A stretch of 64,000 bases of DNA from a bacterium (lineage in GTDB: Bacteria > NPL-UPA2 > JAUVJM01). Location of the stretch: NCBI GenBank assembly GCA_030606215.1, contig JAUWGW010000005.1, positions 15,913 through 79,912 of the forward strand, given 5' to 3'. Every line of letters begins with the position of its first letter. Within the stretch, counting starts at the first letter, position 1. Shown here in pieces: positions 17,879-42,918 of this stretch. The position numbers were made by a program, and so were the translations under genes. Under the pieces are notes generated by a model. The model ran no database searches. It was not told the origin of the DNA and saw only the letters and a program-made list of their open reading frames with translations.

Positions 17879-20597
17879 TATTTCTCCAAGGTACAGTGCC
17901 GCTGAAGTAGAAGAGAAGCTATACAAGTTCTGGGAGGAAGAAGGATTTTTCCAAGCAAGGCCGCCTGAAAGAGGCAGGACACCTTTCTGTATTGTAATCC
18001 CTCCACCTAACATCACCGGTTCCCTTCATATGGGGCATGCCCTGAACAATACGATTCAGGATTGTTTGACACGCTGGAAGAGGATGCAGGGATTAAATGC
18101 TCTCTGGATACCCGGAGTAGACCATGCCGGGATTGCCACACAAAATGTTGTGGAAAAGGAATTGATGAAGGAGGGGAGAAGGCGCGATGAGCTTGGAAGA
18201 GAGGAGTTTGTCAGAAGAGTCTGGCAATGGAAAGAAGAATATGGTGAAGATATAGTTGAACAGTTGCGTCTTCTTGGGTCATCCTGTGATTGGGAACGAT
18301 TGAGATTCACGATGGATGAGAGATATTCAGCCGCGGTGCTGGAGGAGTTTGTTCATCTCTATGGGGAGGGGTCTATCTACCGTGGGAGTCGTATCATCAA
18401 CTGGTGTCCTGGCTGCAGGACAGCTCTTTCAGATATTGAAGTTGAGCATGAAGAAGTTGACGGGAAATTTTATTACATAAAATATCCTTTGAAAGAAGGG
18501 GAGTATATACCTGTTGCAACAACAAGACCTGAAACAATGCTCGGGGACACTGCTGTAGCTGTTCATCCGGATGATACGCGATACAGAAGCCTAATCGGGA
18601 AACCTGTGCTCCTTCCTCTGTCTGGCAGGGAAATACCTGTTATATCCGACGGGAGAGTTGACCCATCCTTCGGCACTGGAGCTGTAAAAGTTACACCTGC
18701 TCATGATCCGGAAGATTTTGAGATCGGGCTTACGCACAATTTACCCGAGGTGAGAGTGATTGGTGAAGACGGGAGGATGACAGAAAATGCAGGCAAATTC
18801 TCAGGCCAGGACCGTTATAAATGTCGCGAGAATGTTCTGAGAGATTTAAAAAATGGCAGGTATCTCTTCAAAATTGAAAATCATAGACATTCAGTTGGGC
18901 ACTGTTATCGTTGCGGCGCTGCAATTGAACCGCTCATTTCACTTCAGTGGTTTGTCAGGATGAAAGAGTTAAGTCAGCCTGCAATAAAGGTTGTTGAGGA
19001 AGGAAAAATCAAATTTCACCCTGAACGCTGGACAGGAGTGTATCTTGACTGGATGAGAAACATAAAGGACTGGTGTATTTCCAGGCAGATCTGGTGGGGG
19101 CACAGGATTCCTGTCTGGTACTGTGAGGATTGTAAGTTTGAAAATGTGGAGAAAGCTGCTCCTGCGAAATGCAAGAAATGTGGTTCGCATAAACTCAGGC
19201 AGGATGAAGATGTTCTGGATACATGGTTCAGTTCTGCCTTATGGCCGCTCTCAGCACTTGGCTGGCCTGAAGATACAGAGGACCTTAAATACTTTTATCC
19301 AACCTCTGTCCTTGTTACCGGCTATGAGATTATTTGTTTCTGGGTTGCGCGGATGATTATGATGGGATTGAAATTCAAAGGGGATGTTCCGTTCGGGGAT
19401 GTCTATATCCACGGAATTGTGCGCGATGCTAAAGGAAGAAAGATGAGCAAATCTCTTGGGAATGTCATAGACCCGAGGGAAATAATCAAATCCTACGGAA
19501 CTGATGCGTTAAGAATGACACTATTGACTTCGCTTGGCGGACAGGATATCTATCTGGGTGAAGAAAAGCTTGAAGGGATGAGAAATTTTGCGAATAAACT
19601 GTGGAATGCCGGAAGATTCATCCTGATGAATATTCACTCAACTGCGTCATTGCGAGGAGCGATAGCGACGTGGCAATCTGACCATTTGCAGGGAGAATTG
19701 ACACTTGATGACAGGTGGATACTTGCAGAACTTCAGAAACTAATACGAGAAGTTACCAATAGCCTGAATACATACAGGTTCAGTGAAGCAGGGCAGATAC
19801 TTTATGAATTTAGCTGGCATAAGTTCTGTGATTGGTATCTTGAACTTGTTAAACCGAGACTGGCTGACCCTCAGGAGAAGGAAGTGGTTTCGCGTGTCCT
19901 TTTGTTTGTATGGGAAAGACTTCTGAGGCTCCTGCATCCATTTATGCCATTTATTACGGAAGAGCTGTGGCAATGTCTCCCTCCTGAATCCATGATGTGG
20001 GAAACATCTCCTGATGTTGAATCCAAGCGTAGGGGCGAGCTTGCTCGCCCTAAGAATGGAAAGAGCATAATGGTCAGTTCCTGGCCTGAAGTTTCTGATG
20101 AGTTTGTAGACCAGGAAGCTGTAGCGCTGGCGGAGCGCAAGTATGCTGTAATCCGAACAGGGCGTCAGCTCAGGACTGAGGCGGGTGTCCCACCCGGGGA
20201 TAAGAGGAATTTCATCATAGAGCCCGCAGATGAGGATGAGGAAAAGGTTTTTAAAGAACAGTTTTCCGGTATTGGCCTTTTACTCGGGGCAGGTGAGGTT
20301 TTGATTGAAAAAAACGCGCAAGTTCCTAAAACATCTCTTTCGGGGATAAGTGCTTTTGGCACACCCGTGCACATGGTTGCAAGTGAAATAGATATAGAAG
20401 CTGAGAAGAACCGGCTCGCACAGGAACTGAAAAAGATTGAAGCTGTAATACAGCGCAGTGAAAACAAGTTGTCAAACCCTGCATTTCTTGAGAAAGCTCC
20501 AGGTAATATTGTTGAGAAAGAGAAACTAAAAAAGAAAGAACTTGAAGAAAGAAAAGAAAAACTCCTCACCCATCTCACCCAACTTAAGCATAACTGA
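17871..20597 (+). CDS. valS: Valyl-tRNA synthetase with two in-frame repeat insertions
   Basis: A 908-residue class I synthetase. [16 protein letters not shown] holds HMGH (53-56); KMSKS is at 524-528; the editing domain lies between; a C-terminal coiled coil ([16 protein letters not shown] onward) is typical. Two stretches have no counterpart in the family: residues about 588-606 ([16 protein letters not shown]) and about 710-728 ([14 protein letters not shown]). Both are translations of palindromic genomic repeats described separately. The frame is intact, so the enzyme probably tolerates them. It overlaps cimA; uvrB follows after three bases. Confidence 0.96.
19645..19680. repeat. Palindromic repeat inside valS (CGTCATTGCGAG type)
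   Basis: The segment starts CGTCATTGCGAGGAGCGA and ends GCGACGTGGCAATCTG. The outer arms ATTGC and GCAAT and the repeated AGCG units form an imperfect palindrome. This sequence type is familiar as an intergenic repeat in many environmental genomes; here it is read in frame within the synthetase. Confidence 0.65.
20029..20051 (+). repeat. GTAG-type REP hairpin inside valS
   Basis: GTAG (20029-20032) followed by perfect arms GGGCGAGC (20033-20040) and GCTCGCCC (20043-20050) around TT. A 5' GTAG before a hairpin is the hallmark of REP sequences moved by IS200-like (RAYT) transposases. It is translated as RRGELARP within ValS. Confidence 0.65.
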
Positions 20598-20600
20598 AAG

Positions 20601-22580
20601 ATGGCTCAATTCAAGCTGGTTTCTAACTTTAAACCTTGTGGTGACCAGCCTTCTGCAATTGAAAAGTTGACAGGAGGGTTGGGAAAAGGGGTGAAGCACC
20701 AGACTCTTCTCGGGGTGACCGGTTCAGGGAAGACCTTTACCATGGCTAATATAATTGCGAATTTGGGCAGCCCCACACTTGTAATATCTCACAATAAGAC
20801 TCTTGCGGCTCAATTATACGCAGAGTTTAAGAGATTTTTCCCTGAGAATGCTGTTGAGTACTTTGTCAGTTATTACGATTACTACCAGCCTGAAGCTTAT
20901 ATCCCGCAGACTGATACCTATATTGAGAAAGATGCATCCATCAATGATGAGCTGGACAGACTGCGTCTCTCCGCAACAAGCAGTCTCCTTGAGAGGGAAG
21001 ATGTTATCATAGTGGCAAGTGTTTCTGCTATATACGGATTGGGTTCACCTGAGGAGCACAAAGAACTTTTTCTTCTCCTTGAAGAAGGAGAAGATATCCC
21101 ACGGGATGATATATTGAGAAAGCTTGTCAGCATACAGTATGAGAGAAATGATTTTGGTTTTACCAGAGGTAAATTCAGAGTCAGGGGTGACTGTGTAGAT
21201 ATATTCCCTGCGTATTCTGAGAGGGCTTTGAGGATAGAACAGTTTGGTGATAGTATACGAAGGATAGTGCAGATAAACCCTCTAACGGGAGAACAAATTG
21301 GTAGAATGGATAGAACTGCCATATATCCAGCCAAGCATTTTGTTACTTCAACCGACAGGTTGAGCAGGGCAATTAAGTCTATAAAAGAGGAGCTGGGAGA
21401 AAGGCTTGCAGAGTTGAGAGGTGAGGGCAAACTTCTGGAAGCACAGCGTCTTGAAGCAAGAACAAATTATGACATGGAGATGATGCAGGAAATTGGTTAC
21501 TGTCAGGGTATAGAGAACTATTCAAGGCATATCAGCGGGCGTTTGCCGGGTGAACCTCCATATACCCTGATAGATTATTTCTCTGAAACCTTTCTCATGG
21601 TAATTGATGAATCCCACGTGACAATTCCTCAGATAAGAGGGATGTATAATGGTGATAGATCGCGGAAAGAGACTCTTGTTGAGCACGGATTTCGGCTTCC
21701 TTCTGCCTTTGATAACCGTCCTCTCAATTTTGGGGAGTTTGAGGAAAGAGTTTCCCGGGTTATTTATGTCTCAGCTACACTTGGACCATATGAACTTGAG
21801 AAAAGTGGAGGGGTGAGCGCAGAGCAAATCATAAGACCTACTGGCTTGGTCGACCCCCGGATTGCTGTTAAGCGGGTGAAAGGACAGATTGACGATTTAA
21901 TAACGCAGATAAGACTGCGTACTTTTAAGAAACAAAGAGTTCTGGTTACCACACTTACCAAACGGATGGCAGAAGATCTTGCTGATTATTTGCAAGAGAT
22001 AGGACTTCGTGTGCGCTATCTACATTCTGAGATTGATACTCTTGAGAGAATGGAAATCATCAGGGATTTGAGACTTGCTAAATTTGATTGTCTTGTCGGA
22101 ATAAATCTGCTCAGGGAAGGACTGGATTTACCGGAGGTATCCCTTGTTGCAATCCTGGATGCTGACAAGGAGGGTTTTCTCCGTTCACAGACTTCTCTTA
22201 TTCAGGTAGCAGGGAGAGCGGCTCGCAATGTGGATGGGGGAGTCATTATGTACGCTGATACTGTTACTAATTCAATGAAAAGTGCTTTAGCGGAAACTGA
22301 TAGGAGACGCAAGATTCAGATGGAGTATAATAAGAAACATCGTATTACCCCCCGCAGTATCCAGAAATCAGTTGACAGTCTGATTGAATTGAACAGAAGT
22401 GCCGCTGACGTTGTGGAGAACGTAGTGCGCGAACCCAAAGTCGGGTATATTTCAGAAGAGAGTCTGGAGATTTGCGACCTTGAAAAAGAAATGGTGGAGG
22501 CTGCAAAACAGCTTGAGTTTGAAAAAGCGGCTGTGTTGAGGGATGAGATTACAGAAATTAAAAAGAAGGCGGGTAAATGA
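20601..22580 (+). CDS. uvrB: Excinuclease ABC subunit B
   Basis: A 659-residue helicase-like damage verifier of nucleotide excision repair. [14 protein letters not shown], the P-loop GVTGSGKT (38-45), the [12 protein letters not shown] beta-hairpin and the [20 protein letters not shown] motif VI region are all present, with a UVR domain ([23 protein letters not shown]) at the C-terminus that contacts UvrC. It starts three bases after valS and overlaps nadC by an ATGA junction. Confidence 0.97.
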
Positions 22581-23425
22581 ATCTCAATGTTAAAAAAATA
22601 GAATCGCTTGTTGAATCTGCATTAAGAGAGGATATAGGGGGGGGAGATATAACCTCGGATATTCTTATTCCTCCTGAGTGTAAAGCAAAAGGGGTAATTA
22701 TTGCTGAGGAAGATGGGGTGATTGCAGGGATTCCAGTTGCAGAACTGGTTTTCAAAATTCTTGATAACAAACTGAAGTTTACAGCATATATTTCAGATGG
22801 GAAGAAGGTGAAGGAAGGTGAGAGAATAGCAGAAGTTGTTGGAGATGCAAAATCTATCCTTGCAGGTGAGAGGACTGCATTGAATTTTCTGGGACATTTA
22901 TCAGGTATTGCAACGAAAACTAACTGTTTCGTTGAAAAAGTCAACCGTTTCAATGTGGAAATTATGGATACCAGAAAAACAACGCCTAATTTGAGGGCGC
23001 TTGAAAAATATGCTGTCAGGGTTGGGGGCGGGTATAATCATCGTATGGGATTATATGATGCAGTTTTGATAAAGGACAATCATCTGAAACTTAGAAAAAA
23101 GAAAATTGCGGATGTGGTGAAAAAAGCGCGCAGGAGTGTCCCGGCATCAATGAAGGTAGAAGTTGAGGTAAAAGATTTTTTAGAAGTTAAGGATGCTTTA
23201 AGTGGCAAACCTGATATCATAATGCTTGATAATATGAGCGTGAGTGATGTGAAGGAAACTGTAGAGTTTGTGCGTAAATCCGGGTGTAGTGTACTTCTGG
23301 AAGTCTCAGGCGGTATCACACTTGAGAATGTTCTGGAGTACGCAGAAACCGGAGTGGATATTATCTCGGCAGGAGAATTGACACATTCAGTTAAGAGTCT
23401 TGATATCAGTATGGAATTTGAATAG
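22577..23425 (+). CDS. nadC: Quinolinate phosphoribosyltransferase
   Basis: A 282-residue enzyme making nicotinate mononucleotide from quinolinate. Motifs [30 protein letters not shown] and [21 protein letters not shown], as well as [11 protein letters not shown], are typical. ATGA overlap with uvrB; birA begins immediately after its stop, a frequent nadC-birA-coaX order. Confidence 0.96.
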
Positions 23426-24247
23426 ATGGAAGAGATTTCCTCTGCTGAGTTAAAGGCTTCTCTTGGGACGAAGTTTGTTGGAAATGAGATTTTTGTCTTT
23501 CAGAATGTATCTTCTACACAGGATGTTGCAAGAGAACTGCTGCGTCAAGGGGCTTTGGAGGGGACGGTAGTTTTAGCTGAGACTCAAAGCGGTGGGAGAG
23601 GTCGTTTCGGAAGAAATTGGTTTTCTCCTTCAGGAGTTGGTATCTGGGCTTCTGTCATTCTACATCCCAAGTTTCAGAATTCAGCCAACTCTCTGCGCCG
23701 AGGCATTGGGTCGGATAAGCCAATCGGTGCAGGGGCTGGGTTAACTGTAGTCAGTCTCACAAGTAGTGTTGCAATTGCAAATGCTATACGGAGAGTTACA
23801 GGATTAAGAAGTTTTGTGAAGTGGCCAAATGATGTCATGTTGCACCAGAAGAAGGTTGCCGGTATCCTTGTGGAGATGGTTGGGGAATCAATTATTGTCG
23901 GAGTTGGGATAAATGTTAATCAGGAACAATTCCCTGAATTCCTCAGGGACAGTGCCACTTCACTTATGATGGAATCGGGGAATGAAGTATCCAGGATTTC
24001 TCTTATAAGAGAAGCCCTTCATCAACTTGAGTATTATTATATCCTGTTAAAGGAGAAAGGATTCTCCCCGGTAATAGAAAAGATGCGGGATATTTCATCA
24101 GTTCTTGGCAGGCAGGTTATTGCTTCTTTCAATGGGAAAAAAATTATAGGGCAGGCGGTGGATGTGGATATAGATGGTGCCTTGCTTATACGGATTGATA
24201 GTGGTTTCCAGGTGCGAGTTCTGGCGGGGAATGTTTCAATCCTTTAG
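23426..24247 (+). CDS. birA: Biotin--protein ligase, single-function form
   Basis: A 273-residue ligase attaching biotin to carboxylase carrier domains. The catalytic GGRGRFGRNW (56-65) and KWPND (132-136) motifs are present. There is no N-terminal helix-turn-helix, so it is not a repressor. Residues about 83-106 (QNSANSLRRGIGSDKPIGAG) are extra relative to typical ligases, and the underlying DNA (near 23680-23745) is partly palindromic around ATTGG/CCAAT, suggesting another translated repeat. Its TAG is shared with the end of a MITE-like terminal sequence. Confidence 0.93.
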   Translation: MEEISSAELKASLGTKFVGNEIFVFQNVSSTQDVARELLRQGALEGTVVLAETQSGGRGRFGRNWFSPSGVGIWASVILHPKFQNSANSLRRGIGSDKPIGAGAGLTVVSLTSSVAIANAIRRVTGLRSFVKWPNDVMLHQKKVAGILVEMVGESIIVGVGINVNQEQFPEFLRDSATSLMMESGNEVSRISLIREALHQLEYYYILLKEKGFSPVIEKMRDISSVLGRQVIASFNGKKIIGQAVDVDIDGALLIRIDSGFQVRVLAGNVSIL

Positions 24248-24264
24248 CCCGGTTTATTCATGCT
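24246..24264. repeat. Solo end of the 130-bp MITE-like family
   Basis: AGCCCGGTTTATTCAT matches, with one mismatch, the terminal sequence AGCCCGGATTATTCAT of the elements at 31624 and 36853 (reverse). It lies between birA and coaX with no partner end nearby. Confidence 0.5.
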
Positions 24265-24288
24265 GTCCTGGAAATCTCTGGGGGGTGT

Positions 24289-25056
24289 ATGGTGTTGCTA
24301 ACGATAGATATCGGGAATACTCAGATAGCCTGTGGAATTTTTGATGAAACAAAATTGGTGGGTGAATGGCGCTATCCAACAGACGGAAGTATGCAGGTTG
24401 ATACCTGCGAGGCTGAGTTAAGTCGGAAACTTCTTTCAGCCGGAGTAAAGCCGGAGCAGATTACAGGTTGTGTTATTTCATGCGTAGTGCCGTCTCTTTC
24501 TGACATTTTCAAGTATGCTTCTGTCAAGCTACTCACTGTGGAACCGCTATTTGTCAGTATAAAGATGAGAACGGGTATATCTGTGAAATATGAGAAGCCA
24601 GAAGAACTCGGCGCTGACAGGATTGCAAACGCTGCAGCTGTCCACCATCTTTATCCAGGAGACGCAATCATTGTGGATTTTGGGACAGCTACGACTTTTT
24701 GTGTATTGTCCGGCGAAGGAGATTATGTTGGTGGAGTTATTGCTCCTGGTGTTGGCATCTCTAAGGAGGCTTTGACGAAGAGGGCGGCGCTATTGCCAGA
24801 GGTGGAATTGCGCGCGCCAGCTAAGGTAATTGGCAAAAATACTGTTGAGAGCATGCAGATAGGTCTCGTATATGGTTTCACAGAGCTGGTTGATGGAATT
24901 GTGAAAAGGTTAAAAAGGGAGTTTAATCCTGATGCAAGAGTGATAGCTGCAGGCGGGTGGGCAGGTCTCATCAGCCCGCTTTCTCAGACAATCACTATTA
25001 CAGACCCTTCCCTCACCCTAAAGGGACTTCAAATTATCTACCAGATGAATTCTTAG
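24289..25056 (+). CDS. coaX: Type III pantothenate kinase
   Basis: A 255-residue kinase of the ASKHA fold starting CoA synthesis. DIGNT (7-11), GADRIANAAAV and DFGTATTF are the phosphate and pantothenate motifs. The type III enzyme is not inhibited by CoA. GGGGGTG ribosome site (24281-24287). Follows birA, the usual neighbour. Confidence 0.96.
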   Translation: MVLLTIDIGNTQIACGIFDETKLVGEWRYPTDGSMQVDTCEAELSRKLLSAGVKPEQITGCVISCVVPSLSDIFKYASVKLLTVEPLFVSIKMRTGISVKYEKPEELGADRIANAAAVHHLYPGDAIIVDFGTATTFCVLSGEGDYVGGVIAPGVGISKEALTKRAALLPEVELRAPAKVIGKNTVESMQIGLVYGFTELVDGIVKRLKREFNPDARVIAAGGWAGLISPLSQTITITDPSLTLKGLQIIYQMNS

Positions 25057-25086
25057 ATAGAACTGCCTCTTATGGTCTTGCACGTT

Positions 25087-25362
25087 TTAACGGGCAGCCA
25101 GTTCCTTCTCTACTCTTTCTGCCAAAAACTCTTTTAAGAGGGACTGGTAAGGCATACCTCGTTTGTTGGATAAGATCTTTAACTCCTCTATCAGGAATTG
25201 AGGCATCCTGATGGAGATCGCCTTTTCGGAAGGCTTTAGTTCTGGAAACTTTACTCTCCTGGCCTTTGACCAATTGATATAATTGGTAGAGTCATGGCTG
25301 ACCCAGAATTTTCTTTCCTCCTCCTCATTCTTGAAGCGGGGTATCTTTTTCTCTTTTTTCAT
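25087..25362 (-). CDS. brnA: BrnA/CopG-type antitoxin
   Basis: A 91-residue protein with a linker (RKFWVSHDSTNYINW, a BrnA-like mark) and a C-terminal ribbon-helix-helix (ISIRMPQFLIEELKILSNKR, PYQSLLKEFL). It should bind the BrnT toxin and repress the operon. AGGAGAAGAG precedes the ATG. Its start overlaps the 3' end of brnT by 38 bases. Confidence 0.85.
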   Translation of the reverse strand: MKKEKKIPRFKNEEEERKFWVSHDSTNYINWSKARRVKFPELKPSEKAISIRMPQFLIEELKILSNKRGMPYQSLLKEFLAERVEKELAAR

Positions 25363-25630
25363 ATTCTCTCTTCTCCTTTTTATTCATATTCCTTGCCGAA
25401 ATAACCCTTATTTTTTCTCCTCTTAATGTGTATACAATAAAGAGTCTTCGCTTTGCAAAAGTATTTCCTAATGCATAATAGCGAGCCTCCTTTGCTGAAT
25501 GGGCTTTATCATAGTAAACTAACAGCCTGGGGTCAAAAAATACTTCCTCGCATTCTTGATCGGTTACTTTATGTCTTTTCCAGTTCTTTCCTGTGTTGCC
25601 TTCATCCCAGTCGAACCCTTTCACATCCAT
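25325..25630 (-). CDS. brnT: BrnT-type ribonuclease toxin
   Basis: A 101-residue toxin: FDWDEGNTGKNWKRHKVTDQE start, EEVFFDPRLLVYYD, RYYALGNTFAKRRLFIVYT and the IRVISARNMNKKEKREYEK end are all family marks of RelE-like BrnT. The DWDE core begins only five residues in, so ATG 25630 is the only credible start. That ATG is about 3 bases from the predicted transcription start, so the mRNA should be almost leaderless. Confidence 0.9.
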   Translation of the reverse strand: MDVKGFDWDEGNTGKNWKRHKVTDQECEEVFFDPRLLVYYDKAHSAKEARYYALGNTFAKRRLFIVYTLRGEKIRVISARNMNKKEKREYEKREKDTPLQE

Positions 25631-25631
25631 T

Positions 25632-25668
25632 TGTGTATGATTATAATATACACACGCCTATTTGTCAA
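25632..25668 (-). promoter_or_regulatory. Consensus promoter with operator for brnTA
   Basis: On the minus strand TTGACA (25668-25663), 17-base spacer and TATAAT (25645-25640). An inverted repeat TGTGTAT/ATACACA (25632-25638 and 25648-25654) spans the -10 box, a likely BrnA operator. Confidence 0.8.
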
Positions 25669-25829
25669 GAAAAACTTGTTTTCAAAAATTATTGCTATGT
25701 TTTGACCTACGTGGTAACATTCTAAGATACACGCAGACCAGCCAAAACGAGGCTTGTTAAAGATAAAATGGGGAGGGTTGGCGTTGTTGTAATGGGGAGC
25801 GGCTCAGGGGATAAAAGGAGGGTAGAAAA

Positions 25830-31615: not shown

Positions 31616-31623
31616 TGCTTCAT

Positions 31624-31753
31624 TAGCCCGGATTATTCATACTACGATGAAATGGCCAACATACTGTCATTCTGAGCGGAGCGAAGAATCTCTATAGATT
31701 CTTCGTCACTAACGCTCCTCAGAATGACACATGCTGTGTGAATAATGCAGGAT
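31624..31753. repeat. MITE-like palindromic element, copy A
   Basis: A 130-bp element starting TAGCCCGGATTATTCAT and ending AATAATGCAGG. Its core holds TGTCATTCTGAG and the complement CTCAGAATGACA around two GAAGAATC/GATTCTTC arms. The same element, reversed, lies at 36726-36853. The ends are imperfect inverted repeats around ATTATTCA/GAATAAT. No coding capacity; probably mobilised in trans. Confidence 0.8.
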
Positions 31754-31767
31754 AGGGAGGGGAGTGA

Positions 31768-32167: not shown

Positions 32168-32184
32168 AAAAATAGCCGGATGAG

Positions 32185-32350: not shown

Positions 32351-32392
32351 GATATAGTATAACTTTGTGGTTTTACTGTATCCCCTGTTTTT
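32345..32392 (+). terminator. Riboswitch expression platform: terminator touching the gcvT start
   Basis: A 15-bp stem pairs 32345-32359 with 32374-32388, followed by TTTTT. The left arm begins inside the last bases of aptamer 2 (ACAGGGG), so ligand binding can compete with the terminator. The U-tract ends three bases before the gcvT ATG (32396), and no ribosome site lies between. Confidence 0.85.
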
Positions 32393-32395
32393 ATT

Positions 32396-33499: not shown

Positions 33500-33501
33500 G
33501 G

Positions 33502-33900
33502 ATGTATCCAACAGATTTAAAGTATACTGTTACACATGAATGGGCTGGGATTGAAGAGAAGACAGGTATCGTAACGGTGGGAATCGGTGAGTACGCTGTG
33601 AAACAGCTCAGTGACATTGTTTTTCTTGAACTGCCTGCTGTCGGTGATAAACTGAAGAAAGGAGAACCTTTTGGGGCCATTGAATCAGTCAAGGCAGTAT
33701 TCGATTTAAACTCGCCGGTGACCGGCGAGGTCGTAGAAGTAAACCAGGCCCTTTCTGATAATCTTGACCTGTTACAGACTGACCCTTACGGCCAGTGCTG
33801 GATGGTTAGGATAAAGGCAGAGAATCAAGAAGAAATTCAGGCATTGATGAATGCAGGAGACTACGAAGACTTCATAAAAAAGGGACAGGGTAAGCATTGA
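33502..33900 (+). CDS. gcvH: Glycine cleavage system H protein
   Basis: A 132-residue lipoyl carrier. Lys64 in GAIESVKAVFDL is the lipoylation site; YTVTHEWAGIEE and GEVVEVNQALSDNLDLL flank it. It shuttles the methylamine group between P, T and L proteins. LipB (7.7 kb) or the LplA-type protein (36.9 kb) could supply its cofactor. AAAGAGGAG lies upstream of the ATG. Confidence 0.97.
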   Translation: MYPTDLKYTVTHEWAGIEEKTGIVTVGIGEYAVKQLSDIVFLELPAVGDKLKKGEPFGAIESVKAVFDLNSPVTGEVVEVNQALSDNLDLLQTDPYGQCWMVRIKAENQEEIQALMNAGDYEDFIKKGQGKH

Positions 33901-33933
33901 CATGCTATCGAGGTAGTCGGAAGGTGAAACCTG

Positions 33934-35268
33934 ATGCCGTACGTATCTAATACAGATGAAGACAGAGCAAGAATGCTGGGCGAATTGGGGCTCAAATCAA
34001 TTGAGGAACTCTTCAGTGATATCCCTGCTGATTTGCGACCTTCCTCTTTTAATCTACCGCCAGGCCTATCAGAACTTGAAGTCCGTCGTTTCACCCAGAC
34101 CCTGGCAGATAAGAATGCCACTGATCTTATTTGTTTCCTGGGGGGTGGTTTCTACGACCATTTTATACCCGCTGCTCTGGATACAATAATTTCACGCAGT
34201 GAATTCTATACGGCTTATACTCCTTATCAACCGGAAATATCCCAGGGCACGCTCCAGGCCATATACGAATATCAATCAGCTGTCTGTCATCTGACAGATA
34301 TGGATGCGGCTAATGCCTCTTTGTACGACGGCGGGACCGCCCTTTACGAAGCAATGATGATGGCGGTAAGGATTACCAAGAGGAGAAAGGTTATTGTAGA
34401 TGAAGGTGTTAGCCCTATATACCGAAAGATGCTGCATTGTTATACCGGCAATTTGGCTCTCGAGTTTGTTGAAATACCAGTAGCCCGAAACGGCCGGGCT
34501 GACAGACAGGCAATAGAGACACAACTTGATAAAAATACATCCTGCCTTATCTTACAAAACCCAAACTTCTTTGGCTGTGTAGATGATATTACCGATATGG
34601 CTGAGTCAGCTCAAAAATCAGGCAGTCTGGTCATTCTTTCGACCTATCCCATTTCTCTGGGCATTCTTAAAACCCCGGGTGAAATGCAGGTGGACATTGC
34701 TACCGGCGAAGGTCAGAGTTTAGGGCTCGGACTTTCTTTCGGAGGTCCATACCTTGGTTTTATGGCCGTGCGTTCCCAATATATCCGCCAGATGCCGGGC
34801 CGCATCGTAGGTGAGACAACAGATAAAAATGGCCAGCGCGGCTTTGTGCTAACGCTCCAGACAAGAGAACAGCATATCCGCAGAGAGAAAGCGACCTCTA
34901 ATATATGTTCTAATGAAGCTCTCTGCGCACTTTCTGCCATTGTCTATCTTAGTCTGATAGGCAAGGAAGGGCTGAAGGAGGTAACTGAGCTTTGCAGCGC
35001 TAAAGCCGATTATACCCTCAAACGTCTTTTAGAGATACCGGGCGTAAAGATGAGATTCCCGGTTCCTATATTTAATGAATTTACATTAGAACTTCCCAGA
35101 GATGCCGGTGATATTATCGGGCAGTTAATTGAAAAAGGGATAATGGCCGGATTCCCTCTGGGACGCTACTATAAGAATATGGAGAAGTGCATGCTGATAG
35201 CCGTGACCGAGAAAAGGACAAAGGAGGAGATAGGGATGTTGGCTGAGGCACTGGAGGCAGTCTTGTAA
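33934..35268 (+). CDS. gcvPA: Glycine dehydrogenase (decarboxylating) subunit 1
   Basis: A 444-residue N-terminal half of the P protein in its split form. [20 protein letters not shown] start, [36 protein letters not shown] and [23 protein letters not shown] are family marks. It pairs with GcvPB to decarboxylate glycine using PLP. GGAAGGTGA precedes ATG 33934; gcvPB starts two bases after the stop. Confidence 0.96.
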
Positions 35269-35270
35269 AA

Positions 35271-36725
35271 ATGAAACTTATTTTTGAAAAAAGCGTTGCT
35301 GGGAGAAGAGGGGTAAGGTTACCCAGATGCGATGTTCCTATTGAGCGGGACAAGTTGAAGGGACTTAAACGCAAAGAACTTCCTGATTTGCCGGAGGTTT
35401 CTGAACTGGACACAGTCCGGCATTTTACAGAACTGTCCAGACACAATTTTGGAGTAGACACCGGCTTCTATCCTTTAGGCTCTTGCACCATGAAATACAA
35501 TCCGAAGATAGGGGAAGAGGCAGTTAGATATCAAGGTTTTAGTCGTCTGCACCCGCTCCTGCCCCAGCTTCGCCAGGGCGGGATACTTACGCAGGGTGCC
35601 TTACAGGTAATCTATGAGACAGAACGGTTTCTATCAGAGATTACCGGTATGGCTGAATTTACCATGCAGCCTTTAGCCGGTGCTCATGGAGAACTGACCG
35701 GGATAATGCTTATTGCCGCCTATCACAAGTCAAGAGGCATCAAGAAAACAAAAGTCATTATCCCTGATTCGGCGCATGGAACTAATCCGGCAAGTGCCGC
35801 TATTGCCGGGTATGAGGTTGTATCAGTGCCTTCTGACAAGAACGGCGTCATGGATTTCAGCGAATTTCGAAAGGTCATTGATGAGAAAGTAGCTGCGGTG
35901 ATGCTTACCTGTCCTAATACCTTAGGGTTGTTTAACCCTGATATAAAGAAGATTGCGGACAGGACACACCAGGCAGGTGGATTGATGTATTATGATGGAG
36001 CAAATCTAAATGCTATTTTAGGTAAATGCCGGCCGGGGGATGTCGGGTTTGATGTTGTGCACTTGAATCTACACAAGACCTTTGGCACGCCTCATGGGGG
36101 AGGCGGGCCAGGGGCAGGACCGGTAGGAGTGAAAGAGCATTTAAGAGAATTTCTTCCTATCTCGCTGGTAGTGAAAAGGCCGGATGGCACATATGCCCTT
36201 GAATATAACCGTCCTAAATCCATCGGATATGTAGCCCCATTCTACGGCAATTTTGGGGTTATACTCAAGTGCTATGTCTATATCCTGCTCCTGGGCCGGG
36301 AAGGTTTAATCAGAGCTGCTGAGAATGCTGTGCTTAATGCCAATTACATGATGGAAAAACTAAAATCTTATTACCATCTTCCCTATGACCGCAGATGTAT
36401 GCATGAATTTGTCTTATCAGCTAATAAACAAAAGAAGCACGGGGTAAAGGCACTGGATATTGCCAAGCGCCTGCTGGATTTTAGTTTTCATCCGCCGACC
36501 ATATATTTCCCTCTCATTGTTGAAGAGGCCATGATGATTGAACCTGCGGAGACCGAATCCGGAGAAACGCTGGATAAATTTATTGAGGTTATGATTCAGA
36601 TTGCTAAAGAGGCTGAGCAGGAACCGCAGACTATTAAAGATGCCCCGCATAATTTAGATATATGCAGGTTGGATGAAGTAAAAGCAGCCAGAGAACCTAA
36701 TCTAAAGTATGTTCGTGTTGCATAG
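35271..36725 (+). CDS. gcvPB: Glycine dehydrogenase (decarboxylating) subunit 2
   Basis: A 484-residue PLP-bearing half of the split P protein. Lys269 in [18 protein letters not shown] is the PLP lysine; [15 protein letters not shown] and [12 protein letters not shown] are typical. Its TAG (36723-36725) touches the MITE-like copy B, so the insertion marks the end of the operon. No gcvL (dihydrolipoamide dehydrogenase) is present in the window. Confidence 0.96.
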
Positions 36726-36853
36726 CCTGCATTGTTCACACTACGTTTGTCATTCTGAGGAGCATAAGCGATGAAGAATCTCATCAGATTCTTCGCTACG
36801 CTCAGAATGACAGAGTGTGGGGTATTTAATCGTAGTATGAATAATCCGGGCTA
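36726..36853. repeat. MITE-like palindromic element, copy B (reverse of copy A)
   Basis: Read on the minus strand it starts TAGCCCGGATTATTCATACT, identical to copy A for the first 24 bases, and shares the TGTCATTCTGAG/CTCAGAATGACA core and the AATGCAGG end. The two copies face each other across the HU-gcv segment. Bases 36854-36900 then hold a short GC-rich stretch (CCCTATCCC/GGGGGAGAGG) of no clear function. Confidence 0.8.
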
Positions 36854-36910
36854 GCCCTATCCCGTTGGGGGAGAGGCAGGGGAGATGGAGAGTCTGCAAA
36901 GGTATAAATT

Positions 36911-37792
36911 ATGAAGTGGCGGCTAATTCAATCAGGTCATCTGGACGGCTATACCAATATGGCAATAGATGAGGCTATGTTTGCCTTAAGTGCGGCAAAT
37001 TATGTGCCAGCGACATTGAGGTTATACGGCTGGAGCCCGCCGGCAATCTCCATCGGTTACTTTCAAAATTACCTATCTCCTCCCCTAATCCCCCTACCCC
37101 CTTTACTAAAGGGGGGAAGGGGGGATTTAGGCTTCCCTTTAATAAAGGGGGAAGGGAGGACTAAGGAGAGGGACAAATCGTTGAAATTGCGGCATGACAG
37201 AATAGATATTGTTCGGCGCCTGACCGGAGGCGGGGCCATACTCCATGACCGGGAATTAACCTTTTGTTTAGTCACCGCTTTTAGGGGTTCTATCATACCG
37301 GATGATATTTTTGATTCTTATAATCTTATCTCCGGGGCTGTCATTAAGGGCTTGCAGATTCTGGGAATAGAGGCGCAAATAAGAGGTGATGAAACTGCTC
37401 TAAGTCATGTTGGATCCTCACTATCTAACAGGGGAAGCGACCGGGCAGTATCTAAGCAGCGTGAGTTCTTCTGCTTTGCCAGGCAGTCAGGGTATGATAT
37501 TATATTTGATGGCAAAAAGCTGGTAGGAAGCGCCCAGAGAAGAAAGGATGGTATTCTCCTGCATCACGGCTCAATTCTGCTGGACGGAGAACAAAACCCG
37601 GAAACCAGTATTGGTGTAAATTCTATTTTGGGTAAGCAGGTCGACTTTAAAGAAATCAGTAAAAATATTGTGGAGGGTTTTTGTAGAACATTGTCAATAG
37701 ACCTGATACCCGGCGAGTTGACTGAAGAGGAATTAGAATTATCCCGGCAGTTGGTAATGACTAAATATAACAAGAGAACCATGGATTTATGA
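36911..37792 (+). CDS. Lipoate--protein ligase / octanoyltransferase (LplA/LipM family)
   Basis: A 293-residue member of the biotin/lipoate attachment fold: NMAIDEAMF start, VRRLTGGGAILHDRELTF and DGKKLVGSAQRRKDGILLHHGSI with the catalytic lysine at about 202. It could salvage lipoate or transfer octanoate to GcvH. Residues about 59-85 (IPLPPLLKGGRGDLGFPLIK region) are extra and encoded by a palindromic repeat; residues about 160-185 also look extended. The frame is open, so it may still work. It lies just after the gcv operon and before serA. Confidence 0.88.
   Translation: MKWRLIQSGHLDGYTNMAIDEAMFALSAANYVPATLRLYGWSPPAISIGYFQNYLSPPLIPLPPLLKGGRGDLGFPLIKGEGRTKERDKSLKLRHDRIDIVRRLTGGGAILHDRELTFCLVTAFRGSIIPDDIFDSYNLISGAVIKGLQILGIEAQIRGDETALSHVGSSLSNRGSDRAVSKQREFFCFARQSGYDIIFDGKKLVGSAQRRKDGILLHHGSILLDGEQNPETSIGVNSILGKQVDFKEISKNIVEGFCRTLSIDLIPGELTEEELELSRQLVMTKYNKRTMDL
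37087..37154. repeat. Double palindromic repeat translated inside the lplA-like gene
   Basis: Two adjacent palindromes: 37087-37127 (AATCCCCC ... GGGGGGATT, with CCCCCTTTA/TAAAGGGGGG inside) and 37132-37154 (CTTCCCTTTA ... TAAAGGGGGAAG). The AATCCCCCT/AAAGGGGG type is a common intergenic repeat in environmental bacteria. Here it is read in frame. Confidence 0.75.
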
Positions 37793-37814
37793 ATAGCAAT
37801 GGAGAAAAGATGAG

Positions 37815-39398
37815 ATGATGAAGATACTGATAAGTGATAATCTATCTGAAGAAGCTGTGGAGATTCTAAAGGAAGAGAAGAATATTAACCCTGAAGTAAA
37901 AACTAATCTTTCCCAGGAAGAACTCCTGGCGTGCATTAAAGACTACCAGGCCCTCATTGTCCGAAGCCGAACCAAGGTCACCAAGGAGCTTATAATAGCA
38001 GGAAAAAACTTGAAGGTAATCGGCCGGGCTGGTGTAGGAGTAGATAATATTGATGTAGAAGCGGCTACCAAACAGGGGATTATTGTTATGAATACTCCTG
38101 ATGCCAATACCATTTCCACAGCTGAACTTACCATGGCTATGATACTGGCCCTCTCACGCAATATCTATCAAGCCACCGCATCACTTAAGGATAACAGATG
38201 GTCAAAAGATAAACTTACCGGTGTGGAGCTATATGATAAGGTCTTGGGTATAATGGGTTTAGGTAGAATTGGCTGCCAGGTAGCTAAACGTGCCCTTTCT
38301 TTTGGTATGCACCCGGTTGCTTACGATCCCTTTATATCAACTGAACAGGCCAGGAAACTTAAGGTCAAACTCCTTGGCTTAAAAGAAGTCTTACAACAGG
38401 CTGACTATATCTCTATACATGCGCCATTGAGCGATGAAACTTACCATATGTTAGGTGAGAAAGAGTTTAAGCTTATGAAAGACGGGGTAAGGGTTATTAA
38501 CTGTGCCCGGGGAGGGATAATCGATGAGGTCACTCTCTATAAAGCCATAACTCAGGGCAAAGTAGCCGGCTGTGCCCTTGATGTTTTTGAAAAAGAGCCT
38601 CCTGATAAAAATCCTCTTCTTGGTTTAGAACAGGTGATTGTTACACCCCATATCGGAGCGGTTACCCGTGAGGCGAAGGCAAATGTAGCTATCCAGATTG
38701 CCGGACAGGTGTTGGAGGTTTTGAAAGGTGGTATTGTCCGGAATGCAGTTAATTTCCCCCGCATAGAACCGGAGATACTGGAAGAAATCAAACCCTATAT
38801 CAATTTAGCTGAAAGATTGGGGAAATTTCAATCGCAGCTTCTTACAGATTGTCTCCAAACGGTAAAAATAACTTATATCGGCCAGATGAATAATTACCAG
38901 CTTAAGCCTATTACCGTTGCCCTTCTCAAAGGGCTCTTGGAGCCGATATTTCCGGAAAGGGTCAATTATATCAATGCATCTATCCTGGCTAAAGAGCGTG
39001 GGATAAAGATTATTGAAACAAAAAGCAGCCAGGTTGAGGACTTCGCTAATCTGATTATGGTGGAGACTGAAACACCTGTTTGTAAAAGGTCAGTGGCGGG
39101 GACATTATTCGGAAAAGAGGACCCGCGTATTATCCTGATAGATAACTATCATGTAGATGCTGTGCCTGAAGGTTATCTGCTGGTTTGCTCCAACTATGAT
39201 AGGCCAGGCGCTATCGCCCATATTTCTACGGTCTTGAGTCGAAACGGAATAAACATTGCCGGGATGACAGTAGGCCGTAAGGAAATAGGGGGTAAAGCCA
39301 TAACTGTGCTTAATATAGATAGTTCAATTTCTACTGAGGTGTTAGAAGAAGTAAAAGATCATCCGGTAATTATAGAAGCGAGGTTGGTTAAGTTATAA
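37815..39398 (+). CDS. serA: D-3-phosphoglycerate dehydrogenase
   Basis: A 527-residue long-form enzyme, first step of serine synthesis. Substrate domain (ALIVRSRTKVTKELI), NAD-binding GLGRIGCQVAKRALSFGM, catalytic Arg/Glu/His regions (NCARGGIIDE, VIVTPHIGAVTREA), an ASB domain and a C-terminal ACT domain (LLVCSNYDRPGAIAHISTVL) for serine control. Either ATG 37815 or ATG 37818 may be used. Sits well beside the glycine-cleavage genes. Confidence 0.96.
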   Translation: MMKILISDNLSEEAVEILKEEKNINPEVKTNLSQEELLACIKDYQALIVRSRTKVTKELIIAGKNLKVIGRAGVGVDNIDVEAATKQGIIVMNTPDANTISTAELTMAMILALSRNIYQATASLKDNRWSKDKLTGVELYDKVLGIMGLGRIGCQVAKRALSFGMHPVAYDPFISTEQARKLKVKLLGLKEVLQQADYISIHAPLSDETYHMLGEKEFKLMKDGVRVINCARGGIIDEVTLYKAITQGKVAGCALDVFEKEPPDKNPLLGLEQVIVTPHIGAVTREAKANVAIQIAGQVLEVLKGGIVRNAVNFPRIEPEILEEIKPYINLAERLGKFQSQLLTDCLQTVKITYIGQMNNYQLKPITVALLKGLLEPIFPERVNYINASILAKERGIKIIETKSSQVEDFANLIMVETETPVCKRSVAGTLFGKEDPRIILIDNYHVDAVPEGYLLVCSNYDRPGAIAHISTVLSRNGINIAGMTVGRKEIGGKAITVLNIDSSISTEVLEEVKDHPVIIEARLVKL

Positions 39399-39485
39399 TG
39401 TTTTTTTCTTGACCGATAGGAACTTGCTTCTTTGACAGTCACAAACCACATACCCGCCAAGCCTCATTTCAGACAGCTTTTTCAT
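39393..39485 (-). CDS. Possible 30-residue protein or relic
   Basis: A short minus-strand frame reads MKKLSEMRLGGYVVCDCQRS and then KFLSVKKKTL, ending at the serA stop. The composition (Cys-x-Cys, basic tail) looks protein-like rather than random, but there is no clear ribosome site and I recognise no family. The rest of 39399-39527 holds nothing else I can name. Confidence 0.25.
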   Translation of the reverse strand: MKKLSEMRLGGYVVCDCQRSKFLSVKKKTL

Positions 39486-39527
39486 ATTTTATGTCATTAT
39501 CGCAGATTTTCTGGGAATTCTTTATCT

Positions 39528-39737
39528 TTATGATTTAGCATGTGCTGGTAATTTAACATCTACTTCATCGCCAATTATCTCTGAAGCATCTATTACCTCT
39601 ATTCCCATAATTTTACCACTTTTGTCAAAATCGGCATGGACACCAGGCATAATAGTTTTGGTCTGAGCTACTTTTTTTGTAGGTTCAGCAAAGTAAACAT
39701 AAAGAAGATCTCGCGATGGATCATATTCTATTTTCAT
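39528..39737 (-). CDS. DUF2283 protein, putative antitoxin
   Basis: A 69-residue protein with the DUF2283 pattern: MKIEYDPSRDLLYVYFA, then PGVHADFDKSGKIMGIEVIDAS. DUF2283 genes commonly sit beside DUF4258 genes as here (five bases apart, same strand), an arrangement often read as a TA-like pair, with this partner as antitoxin. Experimental support is thin. It is the second gene of the pair. Confidence 0.75.
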   Translation of the reverse strand: MKIEYDPSRDLLYVYFAEPTKKVAQTKTIMPGVHADFDKSGKIMGIEVIDASEIIGDEVDVKLPAHAKS

Positions 39738-39742
39738 TGATT

Positions 39743-40039
39743 TTACCCTCCCCTTAAAAATACATCACCATATTTGGCCTTCGCCGTTAGTAATACTAAG
39801 TTATCGTTAACATATTTATAATACACTCTCACTTCTTTCTCTTTATAGAATTTTCCTTCCCATTCCTTATTATAAGTAAAGACAAACACTTTTCCACTTG
39901 TTTCTGTTTTAGCATCATCTGCATCCCATCCGTTTTGTAAAGTTTGTTCTACTTCTTCTTCTGTAATTCCTCGTTGAAACATTCTTACTTTTATGTGGAG
40001 GTGAAAATCATCTTTATTGAGTTTTCTTTCAAGCCCCAT
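39743..40039 (-). CDS. DUF4258 protein, putative toxin
   Basis: A 98-residue protein with the DUF4258 pattern: LHIKVRMFQRGITEEEVEQTL (His-x4-5-Arg-Met/Gly-Ile) and a beta-rich C-terminus (VRVYYKYVNDNLVLLTAKAKYG). The fold resembles RelE/BrnT-type toxins. First gene of the pair with DUF2283, behind its own minus-strand promoter. Confidence 0.75.
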   Translation of the reverse strand: MGLERKLNKDDFHLHIKVRMFQRGITEEEVEQTLQNGWDADDAKTETSGKVFVFTYNKEWEGKFYKEKEVRVYYKYVNDNLVLLTAKAKYGDVFLRGG

Positions 40040-40050
40040 AACATAGGTTT

Positions 40051-40080
40051 ATCATATAAAAAAGAAAAAGGCAAGGTCAA
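40051..40080 (-). promoter_or_regulatory. Promoter of the DUF4258-DUF2283 pair
   Basis: Minus strand TTGACC (40080-40075), 18-base spacer, TATGAT (40056-40051). The start point would lie about 5-6 bases before the DUF4258 ATG at 40039. Confidence 0.55.
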
Positions 40081-40190
40081 ACGTAATCTTTTCGACCATC
40101 ACTTAAATATAGGGAAATTTTAATTCTGGATTATGAGGGGATAATAGCGTATAATTCATCTTATTCGTTTATTGTGAATAGTGGTCGAAG

Positions 40191-41321
40191 ATGAGAGATA
40201 AGATTAAAGGCAGGGAAGAGTTGGCGGAACTCTGTGAAGGATTCAGGAAGCAGGGTAAGAAAATAGGGTTTACATCAGGTGTTTTTGACCTGATTCACGC
40301 AGGTCATGTTGATTATCTTGAAAAAGCTAAGAGCATCTGCGATATTCTGATTGTAGGGATAAACTCAGATGCAGGTGTGAGGAAGTTCAAGGGAAACGCC
40401 CGCCCGATTGTGCCCGAAGATGAAAGAGCAAGAATTATTGCCGGGCTTGAAGCGGTTGATTATGTATTTATTTTTGGTGAGAGGAGAAATAAGAAAAATA
40501 TTGAACTTATCAAGCCGCACTATTACATAAAAGCAGGGGACTATTCAAAAGCAGAACTCACTTCAGCAGAAGTTGTTGAGAAGCTTGGCGGGCAGGTGAA
40601 ACTGATTGAGAAAACTTTTGAATCATCAACTACTGATATTATTGAGAAGATTCTTACTTCGCTGCCAACGCCTGCTGGTCGGGCAGGGGCAGACAGGTCT
40701 ACATACGTCTCTGCCGGGAAGGTAGTTGAGAAAGGAAAGGCTGTACATTTTCCCCTCCTGCCGGCGAAGGTTTCTCCGGCAGTTTTTCTTGATAGGGACG
40801 GAACAATAAGTGAAGAAGTGGAATACCTGCATGAACCTGAGAAATTTAAGTTTCTGCCGAATGCTGCTCGCGGTATAAAAAAGATGCAGGATATGGGTTA
40901 TAAAATTGTAATAGTGACAAACCAGGGGGGTATTGGTCTCGGCTATTTTTCAAAGGAAGATTTTTACAGGGTGAACAGAAAGATGCTTAAAGGATTCTCT
41001 TCGGCTGATGTAACTATTTCGAAGATATATTTCTGCCCGCATAGTAAGAGTGAGGGATGTAACTGCAGGAAACCTAACATTGCTTTAATAAATAGAGCCT
41101 GTTCTGATTTGAACCTGGATGTTAGCAGAAGTTTTATGATAGGTGATAAAACCTCAGATATTGAAGCGGGGAAAAGGGCGGGTTGTAAAACGATACTTGT
41201 CAGGACGGGTTTTGGTGGAAGGGATGAGGAATTTGATGTGGAGCCGGACTATATTGCAGACAACCTCCTCGACGCCGCTGATTATATAAGTAAGGCGAAG
41301 CAAAGAACTGCAAAGGTTTAG
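40191..41321 (+). CDS. Fused heptose-1-phosphate nucleotidyltransferase and heptose-bisphosphate phosphatase
   Basis: A 376-residue two-domain protein. Residues 1-155 are the C-terminal (RfaE2) domain of HldE, with GVFDLIHAGHVDYL and SSTTDIIEKI. Residues about 197-370 are GmhB: FLDRDGT (Asp201, Asp203), TNQGGIGLGYF, and the zinc loop CPHSKSEGCNCRKP. Together they dephosphorylate heptose-1,7-bisphosphate and activate it with a nucleotide for LPS core synthesis. The linker (about 156-196) is partly encoded by a palindromic repeat. The HldE kinase domain is absent here. A TATAAT at 40150-40155 may be its -10 box. Confidence 0.92.
   Translation: MRDKIKGREELAELCEGFRKQGKKIGFTSGVFDLIHAGHVDYLEKAKSICDILIVGINSDAGVRKFKGNARPIVPEDERARIIAGLEAVDYVFIFGERRNKKNIELIKPHYYIKAGDYSKAELTSAEVVEKLGGQVKLIEKTFESSTTDIIEKILTSLPTPAGRAGADRSTYVSAGKVVEKGKAVHFPLLPAKVSPAVFLDRDGTISEEVEYLHEPEKFKFLPNAARGIKKMQDMGYKIVIVTNQGGIGLGYFSKEDFYRVNRKMLKGFSSADVTISKIYFCPHSKSEGCNCRKPNIALINRACSDLNLDVSRSFMIGDKTSDIEAGKRAGCKTILVRTGFGGRDEEFDVEPDYIADNLLDAADYISKAKQRTAKV
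40758..40782. repeat. Palindromic repeat in the hldE-gmhB linker
   Basis: CTGCCGG-C-GAA (40758-40768) pairs with TTC-T-CCGGCAG (40772-40782). The preceding linker DNA (40668-40720) is also repeat-like, with CCTGCTGGTCGGGCAGG. It is translated as part of the domain linker. Confidence 0.5.
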
Positions 41322-41419
41322 TCATTCAAATACCTTTCTACTGTATCCGGTCCAGAAGCTATTCTATTAAACCTATCTGCTGATTTTTAAGAATTCCTTG
41401 TGGGTACTCGCGAAAATTC

Positions 41420-41456
41420 TTGACGCAAAAAACTTAATATTGTATACTTTATACAA
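41420..41456 (+). promoter_or_regulatory. Promoter and GntR operator
   Basis: TTGACG (41420-41425), 17-base spacer, TATACT (41443-41448). TTGTATA-CTT-TATACAA (41440-41456) is a perfect inverted repeat of the FadR/GntR type covering the -10 box and start point. The GntR ATG is the very next base (41457). Confidence 0.8.
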
Positions 41457-42128
41457 ATGAAAACAAAAGAAAGAATTACTCGTCCCAACCTGAGTGATGA
41501 GGCATACAATATCTTGGCCAATAGGATCATTAATCGAAAGCTCCCGGCAGGAGTGAAGTTGATTGAGGACCAATTAGCGGAGGATCTTGGTATCAGCCGA
41601 ACCCCCATTCGGGAAGCATTGAACCGTCTGGCTCAGGATGGTCTGATTGAGTTGGTTCCGAGAAAAGGCGCTCAGGTGAGCCGGCTGAAAGCCAAGGATG
41701 TTGAGGAGATATACGAGCTCCGAAAACTACTCGAGGGATTTGCTGCAGAGAAAGCAACTGCCTTGATAAAGAAAGAAGAGCTTAGTGAGATAAAGGAGCT
41801 GGTGGAAAAGAGTGAGAGCTCCTCAGAAAGAAGGTTAGAATATTTCCTCAAGGTAGACCTCAAACTACATAATTTGATTATCAGCCGCTGTGGCAACAGC
41901 CGTTTAATCAAGATACTTAAGAGTCTCCACAATTTTGTTAATAGTTTCCGCATTCTTGATGCCCAGTATGACCGGAGGATCAAGCAGGCCCATAAAGAGC
42001 ATAAGACTATATTAAAAGCCCTTTTAAAGAAGGATGCTAGATTGGCAAGATTACTGATTGAACAGCATATTGAGAATGCCAAGAAGAACATCCTTGCTGA
42101 CTTTGAATTCAAAGATAGGAAGGTTTAG
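41457..42128 (+). CDS. GntR-family regulator with FCD domain
   Basis: A 223-residue regulator. N-terminal winged helix-turn-helix (KLIEDQLAEDLGISRTPIREALNRL, about 35-59) and a C-terminal FCD ligand/metal-binding domain with VDLKLHNLIISRCGN and the EHKTILKALLKKD helix. It probably represses itself and the catabolic genes that follow, releasing when a small acid or sugar acid binds. The SDR gene starts right after its TAG. The promoter places the transcript start 1-3 bases before the ATG, so the mRNA should be leaderless. Confidence 0.92.
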   Translation: MKTKERITRPNLSDEAYNILANRIINRKLPAGVKLIEDQLAEDLGISRTPIREALNRLAQDGLIELVPRKGAQVSRLKAKDVEEIYELRKLLEGFAAEKATALIKKEELSEIKELVEKSESSSERRLEYFLKVDLKLHNLIISRCGNSRLIKILKSLHNFVNSFRILDAQYDRRIKQAHKEHKTILKALLKKDARLARLLIEQHIENAKKNILADFEFKDRKV

Positions 42129-42869
42129 ATGCGAACTCCTGTGAGTATAGTTACCGGCTCGGCGCAGGGCATCGGAAGAGCAATCTCCTTAGCTTTGGCT
42201 AAAGAAGGTGCAAAGCTTGTTCTGGTGGATATTGATGAGAAAAGGTTGGAAAGTGTAGGAAGAGAGGTTAAAAAGATAGGAAGTAAACCGTTGTTAGTTA
42301 AGGCTGACATATCAAGGTTTGAGGATGTAGAAAGAATAGTCAAAACCACTATAGCTGAATTCAAAAGGATAGATATACTGGTTAATAATGCCGGCTTTTG
42401 CTCTCGCCGCCCACTCTCTGAAATCTCCGAGTCAGAATGGGATCGACTGATGAAGGTTAACCTCAAAGGGACATTTTTTCTCTCCCAGAAGGTACTGATC
42501 CTTATGAAGAGGCAGAGAAGGGGCAAGATTATCAATATTGCCTCCCTTGCTGGCAAAATTGGCGGGATAGCAGTAGGAGCAGATTATGCGGCTTCAAAGG
42601 CAGGGGTGATCTGTCTGACTAAATCCTTAGCAAAAGAGGGTGGTTCTTATAGGATAAATGTAAATTGTGTCTGTCCCGGAGTAATCAAGACAAGGATAAC
42701 TTCATCTCTTTCTAAAAAAATGATAGAAGGATATAAAAAGGCTATCCCGTTGGGCAGGATAGGAAGTCCGGAAGATGCAGCTAATGCAGTATTATTCTTA
42801 GCTTCTAAGAAAGCAGATTATATTACCGGTGAGACATTGGATGTGAATGGTGGATTATTCATGGACTGA
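42129..42869 (+). CDS. Short-chain dehydrogenase (SDR)
   Basis: A 246-residue NAD(P)-dependent oxidoreductase. TGSAQGIGRAI (cofactor loop), NNAGFCSRRP, catalytic Ser-Tyr-Lys with YAASKAG, and the GGLFMD end are classical SDR marks. Asp in LVDIDE after the second strand favours NAD. Starts at the base after the GntR stop. Likely oxidises a sugar, polyol or hydroxy acid in the pathway; the substrate is unknown, and FabG-like activity cannot be excluded. Confidence 0.9.
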   Translation: MRTPVSIVTGSAQGIGRAISLALAKEGAKLVLVDIDEKRLESVGREVKKIGSKPLLVKADISRFEDVERIVKTTIAEFKRIDILVNNAGFCSRRPLSEISESEWDRLMKVNLKGTFFLSQKVLILMKRQRRGKIINIASLAGKIGGIAVGADYAASKAGVICLTKSLAKEGGSYRINVNCVCPGVIKTRITSSLSKKMIEGYKKAIPLGRIGSPEDAANAVLFLASKKADYITGETLDVNGGLFMD

Positions 42870-42878
42870 AATGATGTA

Positions 42879-42898
42879 GGAGACATCTTCTGATGTCG
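42879..42898 (+). repeat. GTAG-type hairpin between the SDR and solute-binding genes
   Basis: GTAG followed by GAGACATC-TTCT-GATGTC; arms GACATC and GATGTC are perfect. It has the GTAG-plus-hairpin layout of the units at 20029 and 60567. It may also weaken read-through into the next gene. Confidence 0.5.
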
Positions 42899-42918
42899 AT
42901 GGTTCATCGAAAAAAGGT

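Follow-up and report, generated by a model that had tools for sequence, protein, structure and literature searches.

Palindromic elements and the genes that carry them

The window, by which we mean the whole 64,000-nt stretch of DNA analysed here (G000:C11:15913-79912), belongs to a metagenome bin, G000, with a genome of 1.52 Mb in 34 contigs that is 92.9% complete. An initial annotation had placed two palindromes in valS, a double one in an LplA-type gene and one in the linker of a fused hldE-gmhB gene, all in frame. The palindromes were found at these places, and elements B, C, D, and E all lie within open frames and are read through in frame. The features discussed below are as follows.

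17871..20597, plus strand: valS, valine--tRNA ligase (NCBIfam NF004349/TIGR00422; open frame of 908 aa), carrying elements B and C
19646..19679, plus strand: element B in valS, GTCATTGCGAGGAGCGATAGCGACGTGGCAATCT, half of a GTCATTGCGAG...GGCAATC repeat, coding for 12 residues
20029..20050, plus strand: element C in valS, GTAGGGGCGAGCTTGCTCGCCC, a GTAG-tagged hairpin coding for RGELARP
23426..24247, plus strand: birA, biotin--protein ligase, with an 18-aa insertion
23682..23738, plus strand: imperfect palindrome in the birA insertion, single copy (DNA fold z -2.38)
31624..31754, unstranded: family A element, 131 nt, intergenic, an inverted copy (84%) of 36723-36853
36723..36853, unstranded: family A element, 131 nt, intergenic
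36911..37792, plus strand: gene of the LplA-type lipoate ligase family, with element D and a further insertion
37072..37171, plus strand: element D, a nested double palindrome around CCCCCTTTACTAAAGGGGG, coding for YLSPPLIPLPPLLKGGRGDLGFPLIKGEGR
37391..37471, plus strand: second extra segment of the LplA-type protein (residues about 161-187), shared with G008 and missing in distant homologues
40191..41321, plus strand: fused gene for an HldE-type adenylyltransferase and a GmhB-type phosphatase (domains at residues 16-155 and 195-370)
40677..40720, plus strand: element E in the interdomain linker, coding for GRAGADRSTYVSAG

The phylum is sparsely sampled: one relative, G001, belongs to the family of G000, and seven further ones (G002-G008) belong to its phylum. 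Over 5.1 kb, L001, a record that carries the label Nitrospirota, is identical to G005 of this phylum. The closest ValRS relatives of G000 are not Rickettsiales. Compared with its G001 homolog, valS has a net gain of 5 aa at the B site, in a variable loop (70-71% identity between the proteins), and of 5 or 6 aa at the C site. The C region also exceeds that of other relatives by about 20 aa, which implies that this loop expanded in the family before or with the arrival of C. The hld linker that contains E is 9 to 13 aa longer than those of G001, G006, and G008. In the LplA-type protein, the D region comprises about 38 aa missing from distant homologues, and G008 is expanded at the same position, sharing the left arm (CTATCTCCTCCCC) but differing in the rest; this insertion is accordingly older than the separation of the two genes, or else was transferred. 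The LplA-type proteins of G000 and G008 are 74% identical, more than their ValRS proteins (59%), which hints at gene transfer between lineages. The annotation had itself raised the doubt that the segments might be ancestral in their protein families; most of them are missing in G001.

The segments had also been proposed to fall at loops or linkers, and they do so in the valS loops and the hld linker. In a structural model of HldE-GmhB, residues 159-191 have pLDDT values below 50, with both domains mostly above 80-90, and in the model of the LplA-type protein the low-confidence stretches coincide with the extra segments at residues 55-95 (pLDDT below 50) and 161-186. Both models give these segments almost no secondary structure. 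The encoded segments thus appear to be exposed and outside the conserved core, as predicted by modeling for hld and lplA and by alignment for the other cases. Twenty encoded peptides have a mean GRAVY of -0.72 and a Pro, Gly, and Arg content of 39%, and linkers or domain borders account for five of the 20 in-frame cases (hld, activase, Sua5-LMWP, der, and htrA).

Repeat families in the genome and its relatives

Repeat status was established for B, C, D, and I, and likewise for A, H, J, and K. The absence of further genomic copies, which the initial annotation had named as the outcome contrary to its reading, was looked for, and extra copies were found for B, C, and D. Three of the four palindrome types it had described are therefore repeats, upholding its statement that several families are present at once. 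Its view of repeats as the source of the segments holds for B, C, and D; E and the birA palindrome are putative repeats. Sequence samples covered 823 kb (54%) of the source genome and 536 kb of G001. Gene names such as carA, nadB, and dapA come from Pfam or PDB matches, and the labels apbE-like and spermidine-synthase-like come from reading the sequence, with no Pfam match.

Elsewhere in the genome, element B recurs once exactly, once as an 88% copy, and in A/B hybrids. Of 145 genomes, 17 contain its exact 16-mer, one of them as many as 66 times, with no matches for the reversed control, and a literal text search found no published description of the motif. In G003 (L243), motif B appears twice in frame in a single 972-aa open frame resembling a DNA methyltransferase.

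Genome-wide searches for C and D, which gave zero or one reversed-control match each, returned five loci apiece. Those of C are valS, nadB, ychF (three mismatches), a site beside the remnant of an SDR gene, and an intergenic site; two of the five lie firmly inside genes, ychF being unsure. Counting ychF as a firm insertion was rejected, as its two candidates, the mismatched C copy and a family F element, give little or no net length gain over the YchF of Haemophilus and E. coli. The in-frame copies in valS, nadB, and the rsmH gene of G001 all read GELARP, and one locus holds a head-to-head dimer. A GTAG at the hairpin foot was seen in C at 20029-20050 and at L103, a feature that B, D, and I lack. 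Four of the five D loci are inside genes (lplA, carA, a PMT_2 membrane protein, and a CxxCxxCC protein), and one is at a gene end. In the carA gene with the D palindrome (L341:11197-12315; G000:C1:51197-52315), ISTGCE replaces the catalytic-cysteine motif and FQGHPE is missing, which suggests from the sequence an inactive glutaminase domain.

No further copies of E were found in the genome-wide search, nor a second copy of the birA palindrome in the own-genome or G001 samples, nor repeat copies of the second LplA-type segment (37391-37471) in the sample. The suggestion that birA might also belong here was half borne out: the 18-aa insertion with its imperfect palindrome is present, but lacking a second copy it was not counted as a repeat. 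For both E and birA, a repeat origin would depend on position and weak palindromy. Hairpin folding stood out in C, D, and birA (z -2.2 to -2.4) and no better than in shuffled sequences for B (DNA fold z -0.6) and E (z -1.0).

Family I, a CCCGCC...GGCGGG palindrome, was found by an unbiased screen for indels between orthologs of G000 and G001 (196 reciprocal pairs; median identity 69%; 58,982 aligned residues). In the 54% own-genome sample to which its count is limited, five of seven loci are inside genes, namely dapA, an apbE-like gene, the linker of a tandem BcrAD_BadFG activase, a spermidine-synthase-like membrane protein, and the CxxCxxCC protein that also carries D. The 19 extra aa of dapA and 16 extra aa of the apbE-like protein face clean empty sites in G001, and since G001 is without the extra residues in valS, hld, dapA, and apbE, these residues are insertions. 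A 25-nt inverted repeat (88%) with GGATGTCTCCCAT arms at window positions 1576-1640, intergenic and following the end of an rpmA-like gene, is related in sequence to the flank of family I.

Family A, TGTCATTCTGAG...CTCAGAATGACA, is 131 nt long in the window, with nested inverted repeats, and is the most abundant family. None of its 26 matches lies in the interior of an identified gene, versus six of 10 for C and D (p 1e-4). The two window copies, inverted relative to each other, bracket the gcvT-gcvH-gcvPA-gcvPB operon and could support its inversion. Element cores measure 22-61 nt, and the double D of lplA alone reaches 100 nt. The consensus sequences of C, D, E, F, I, and K each have four or five open frames out of six, the A core has two, and the 131-nt A has none, in agreement with the absence of A from gene interiors. 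Family J is an exception, having none of 10 copies in gene interiors in the own-genome sample even though its consensus is open in five frames; open frames therefore do not fully explain placement, and other factors, such as target preference, matter.

Similar insertions were observed in relatives. The Sua5-LMWP gene of G001 carries a 22-aa palindrome insertion exactly between the Sua5 and LMWPc Pfam domains; the palindrome has 32 blastn matches in the G001 sample and the partner genome has the empty site. The valS gene of G007 has a 38-aa in-frame insertion at another site, missing in G006 and G008, that consists of repeat K, copies of which are present in all three genomes. Several K copies are flanked on both sides by CTAC or CTGC, which suggests a target duplication of 3-4 bp. 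Other copies are in frame in der, an M20 peptidase gene, htrA, and an RNase E/G gene, names that reflect sequence reading and not a family search, and two are intergenic. The K copy in der of G006 lies, by position, between the two GTPase domains. A valS gene from a Chloroflexi MAG (L060:4353-4440) has a different repeat, CCCTCTCCCAGAGGGAGAGGG, coding for RPHPGPLPEGEGE, in the same loop as B in the window. The candidate idea that ValRS loops are palindrome hot spots across bacteria was rejected, with 5/107 and 4/104 at p 0.05 matching chance, and the Chloroflexi case is for this reason treated as an anecdote.

Probable origin of the extra segments

The findings are very probably best explained by palindromic repeats that inserted into the genome and whose survivors were filtered by selection. 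Under this model, at least six unrelated small palindromic families would have inserted blindly, in a transposition-like manner, and purifying selection would then decide where copies survive. For short, G+C-rich elements with four or five open frames out of six (C, D, F, and I, with K in relatives), survival inside a gene would depend on landing in frame at a loop on the protein surface, in a disordered region, or in a linker between domains. Such copies would become translated segments of about 5 to 40 residues in which Pro, Gly, and Arg are abundant, and family A, being longer and containing stops, would be kept to the spaces between genes. Alignments place the extra residues of valS, hld, dapA, apbE, sua5-LMWP, and the G007 valS as missing in close relatives. 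We infer that the proteins are made with the segments and that the segments are tolerated rather than useful. Counting against the model are the single-copy status of E and the birA palindrome, the little or no net gain in ychF, the placement of family J, the chance-level palindrome content of the valS loops across 107 bacteria, and the lack of a PF01797 match in the genome.

That the segments are instead useful, as linkers, as regulatory tails, or as intragenic DNA or RNA hairpins tuning translation or mRNA stability, we consider improbable. The cases at linkers or domain borders (five of 20) and the lplA site occupied in both G000 and G008, in proteins 74% identical, are what this reading would predict, but linkers and loops are already expected from tolerance alone. 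In close relatives the genes are otherwise intact without the segment, the peptides vary by family and frame, and the B and E hairpins are weak.

Less probable still, and quite unlikely overall, is that the segments are ordinary fast-evolving loops whose palindromes arose by chance, slippage, or template switching and not by the spread of repeats. The density of hairpins in coding DNA is indeed no more than about double the Markov expectation, E and the birA palindrome each occur once, and some 90% of indels of at least 4 aa are not repeat derived. A general excess of hairpins in genes was accordingly rejected as an argument, and the case is carried by repeat and insertion status, not by hairpin counts. 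Among the 67 indels of at least 4 aa in the 196 ortholog pairs, hairpin scores reached p 0.05 or better in seven (3.4 expected). Sequence with other genomic copies (E 3e-4 or better) was present in six of the 67, versus three of 335 random coding segments (p 0.001); thresholds in this screen were chosen after looking at the data, and two insertions in an apparently multicopy gene were excluded. The repeat effect is real and accounts for about a tenth of such indels. Against ordinary loops stand the related copies of C, D, and I in unrelated genes and between genes, the exact matches to the B repeat in 17 of 145 genomes, and the copies of the G007 valS repeat K across three genomes, so that this alternative is already disfavored for B, C, D, I, H, and K.

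Misjoining of repeats inside genes during assembly or binning, which a metagenome-type assembly in 34 contigs might invite, is scarcely credible, given that one and the same protein is encoded in frame on the two sides of every element, that the net gain in length is divisible by three, and that the pattern recurs in several independently assembled relatives.

No match to the RAYT transposase (PF01797) was found in G000, 92.9% complete, in a search whose positive controls worked, and RAYT was rejected as the candidate mobilizer on this ground. A broader proposal, that throughout the phylum mobile, stop-poor palindromes moved by a non-RAYT system steadily supply protein segments, especially to the linkers of fused enzymes, may be correct, though we lean slightly against it. 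The initial annotation had likewise suggested a general mechanism for turning small repeats into protein, and other repeats in relatives do behave in the same way, but the repeats supply a minority of indels and family A avoids gene interiors.

Relation to known palindromic elements

Palindromes that code for protein have been described best in Rickettsia, whose lineage is intracellular and reductive, and the present case comes from a small, little-sampled phylum. Empty sites in sister genomes and repeats that are mostly genic make it a second system in which to measure mobile DNA becoming protein, and one in which to ask whether such segments are no more than tolerated and, where RAYT is lacking, what enzyme mobilizes REP-like elements.

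The nearest known kinds appear, from their published descriptions, to be the Rickettsia palindromic elements (RPEs) and the intragenic GTAG/CGTC REPs. RPEs comprise about ten families with nearly half of the copies in genes (PMC10969869, PMC3767692), and like the elements described here, RPEs and Wolbachia palindromic elements form several families, lie in frame in housekeeping genes at solvent-exposed sites, and are also found between genes. In-frame genic copies, as in RPEs, were found for C, D, I, and B in the source genome and for H and K in relatives, and the likeness to RPEs that had been suggested initially stands to this extent; the elements here are shorter and REP-like. RPEs are typically 100-150 bp and belong to Rickettsiales, whereas those described here are about 20-100 bp and come from a distant phylum, a comparison made by description and not by sequence. 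Multiple families, which the same annotation had offered as a distinction from Rickettsia, are no point of difference given its ten or so RPE families (PMC10969869). The biotin ligase genes of Wolbachia and Rickettsia carry palindromic elements (PMC3767692), to which the birA insertion in the window may be a parallel.

REPs have been reported inside genes, including those for tRNA synthetases, with two recB genes carrying REPs at about the same site (PMC3733652). The GTAG-tagged REPs (PMC3733652) resemble C, a short hairpin whose foot bears the GTAG with which the element starts, and K, which ends in CTAC/GTAG. However, GTAG-tagged REPs are mostly intergenic and RAYT associated, whereas D, I, and K are mostly inside genes and G000 has no RAYT match. 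Intragenic MITEs (ERIC, BOX, and others; PMC10969869) are small, nonautonomous inverted-repeat elements able to make in-frame fusions; family A, with 131 nt, nested inverted repeats, and 26 matches, looks MITE-like but differs in that none of its copies occupy gene interiors. The present elements differ from these kinds in their size, in the preference of several families for sites inside genes, in the lack of a RAYT match, and in the lineage in which they occur.
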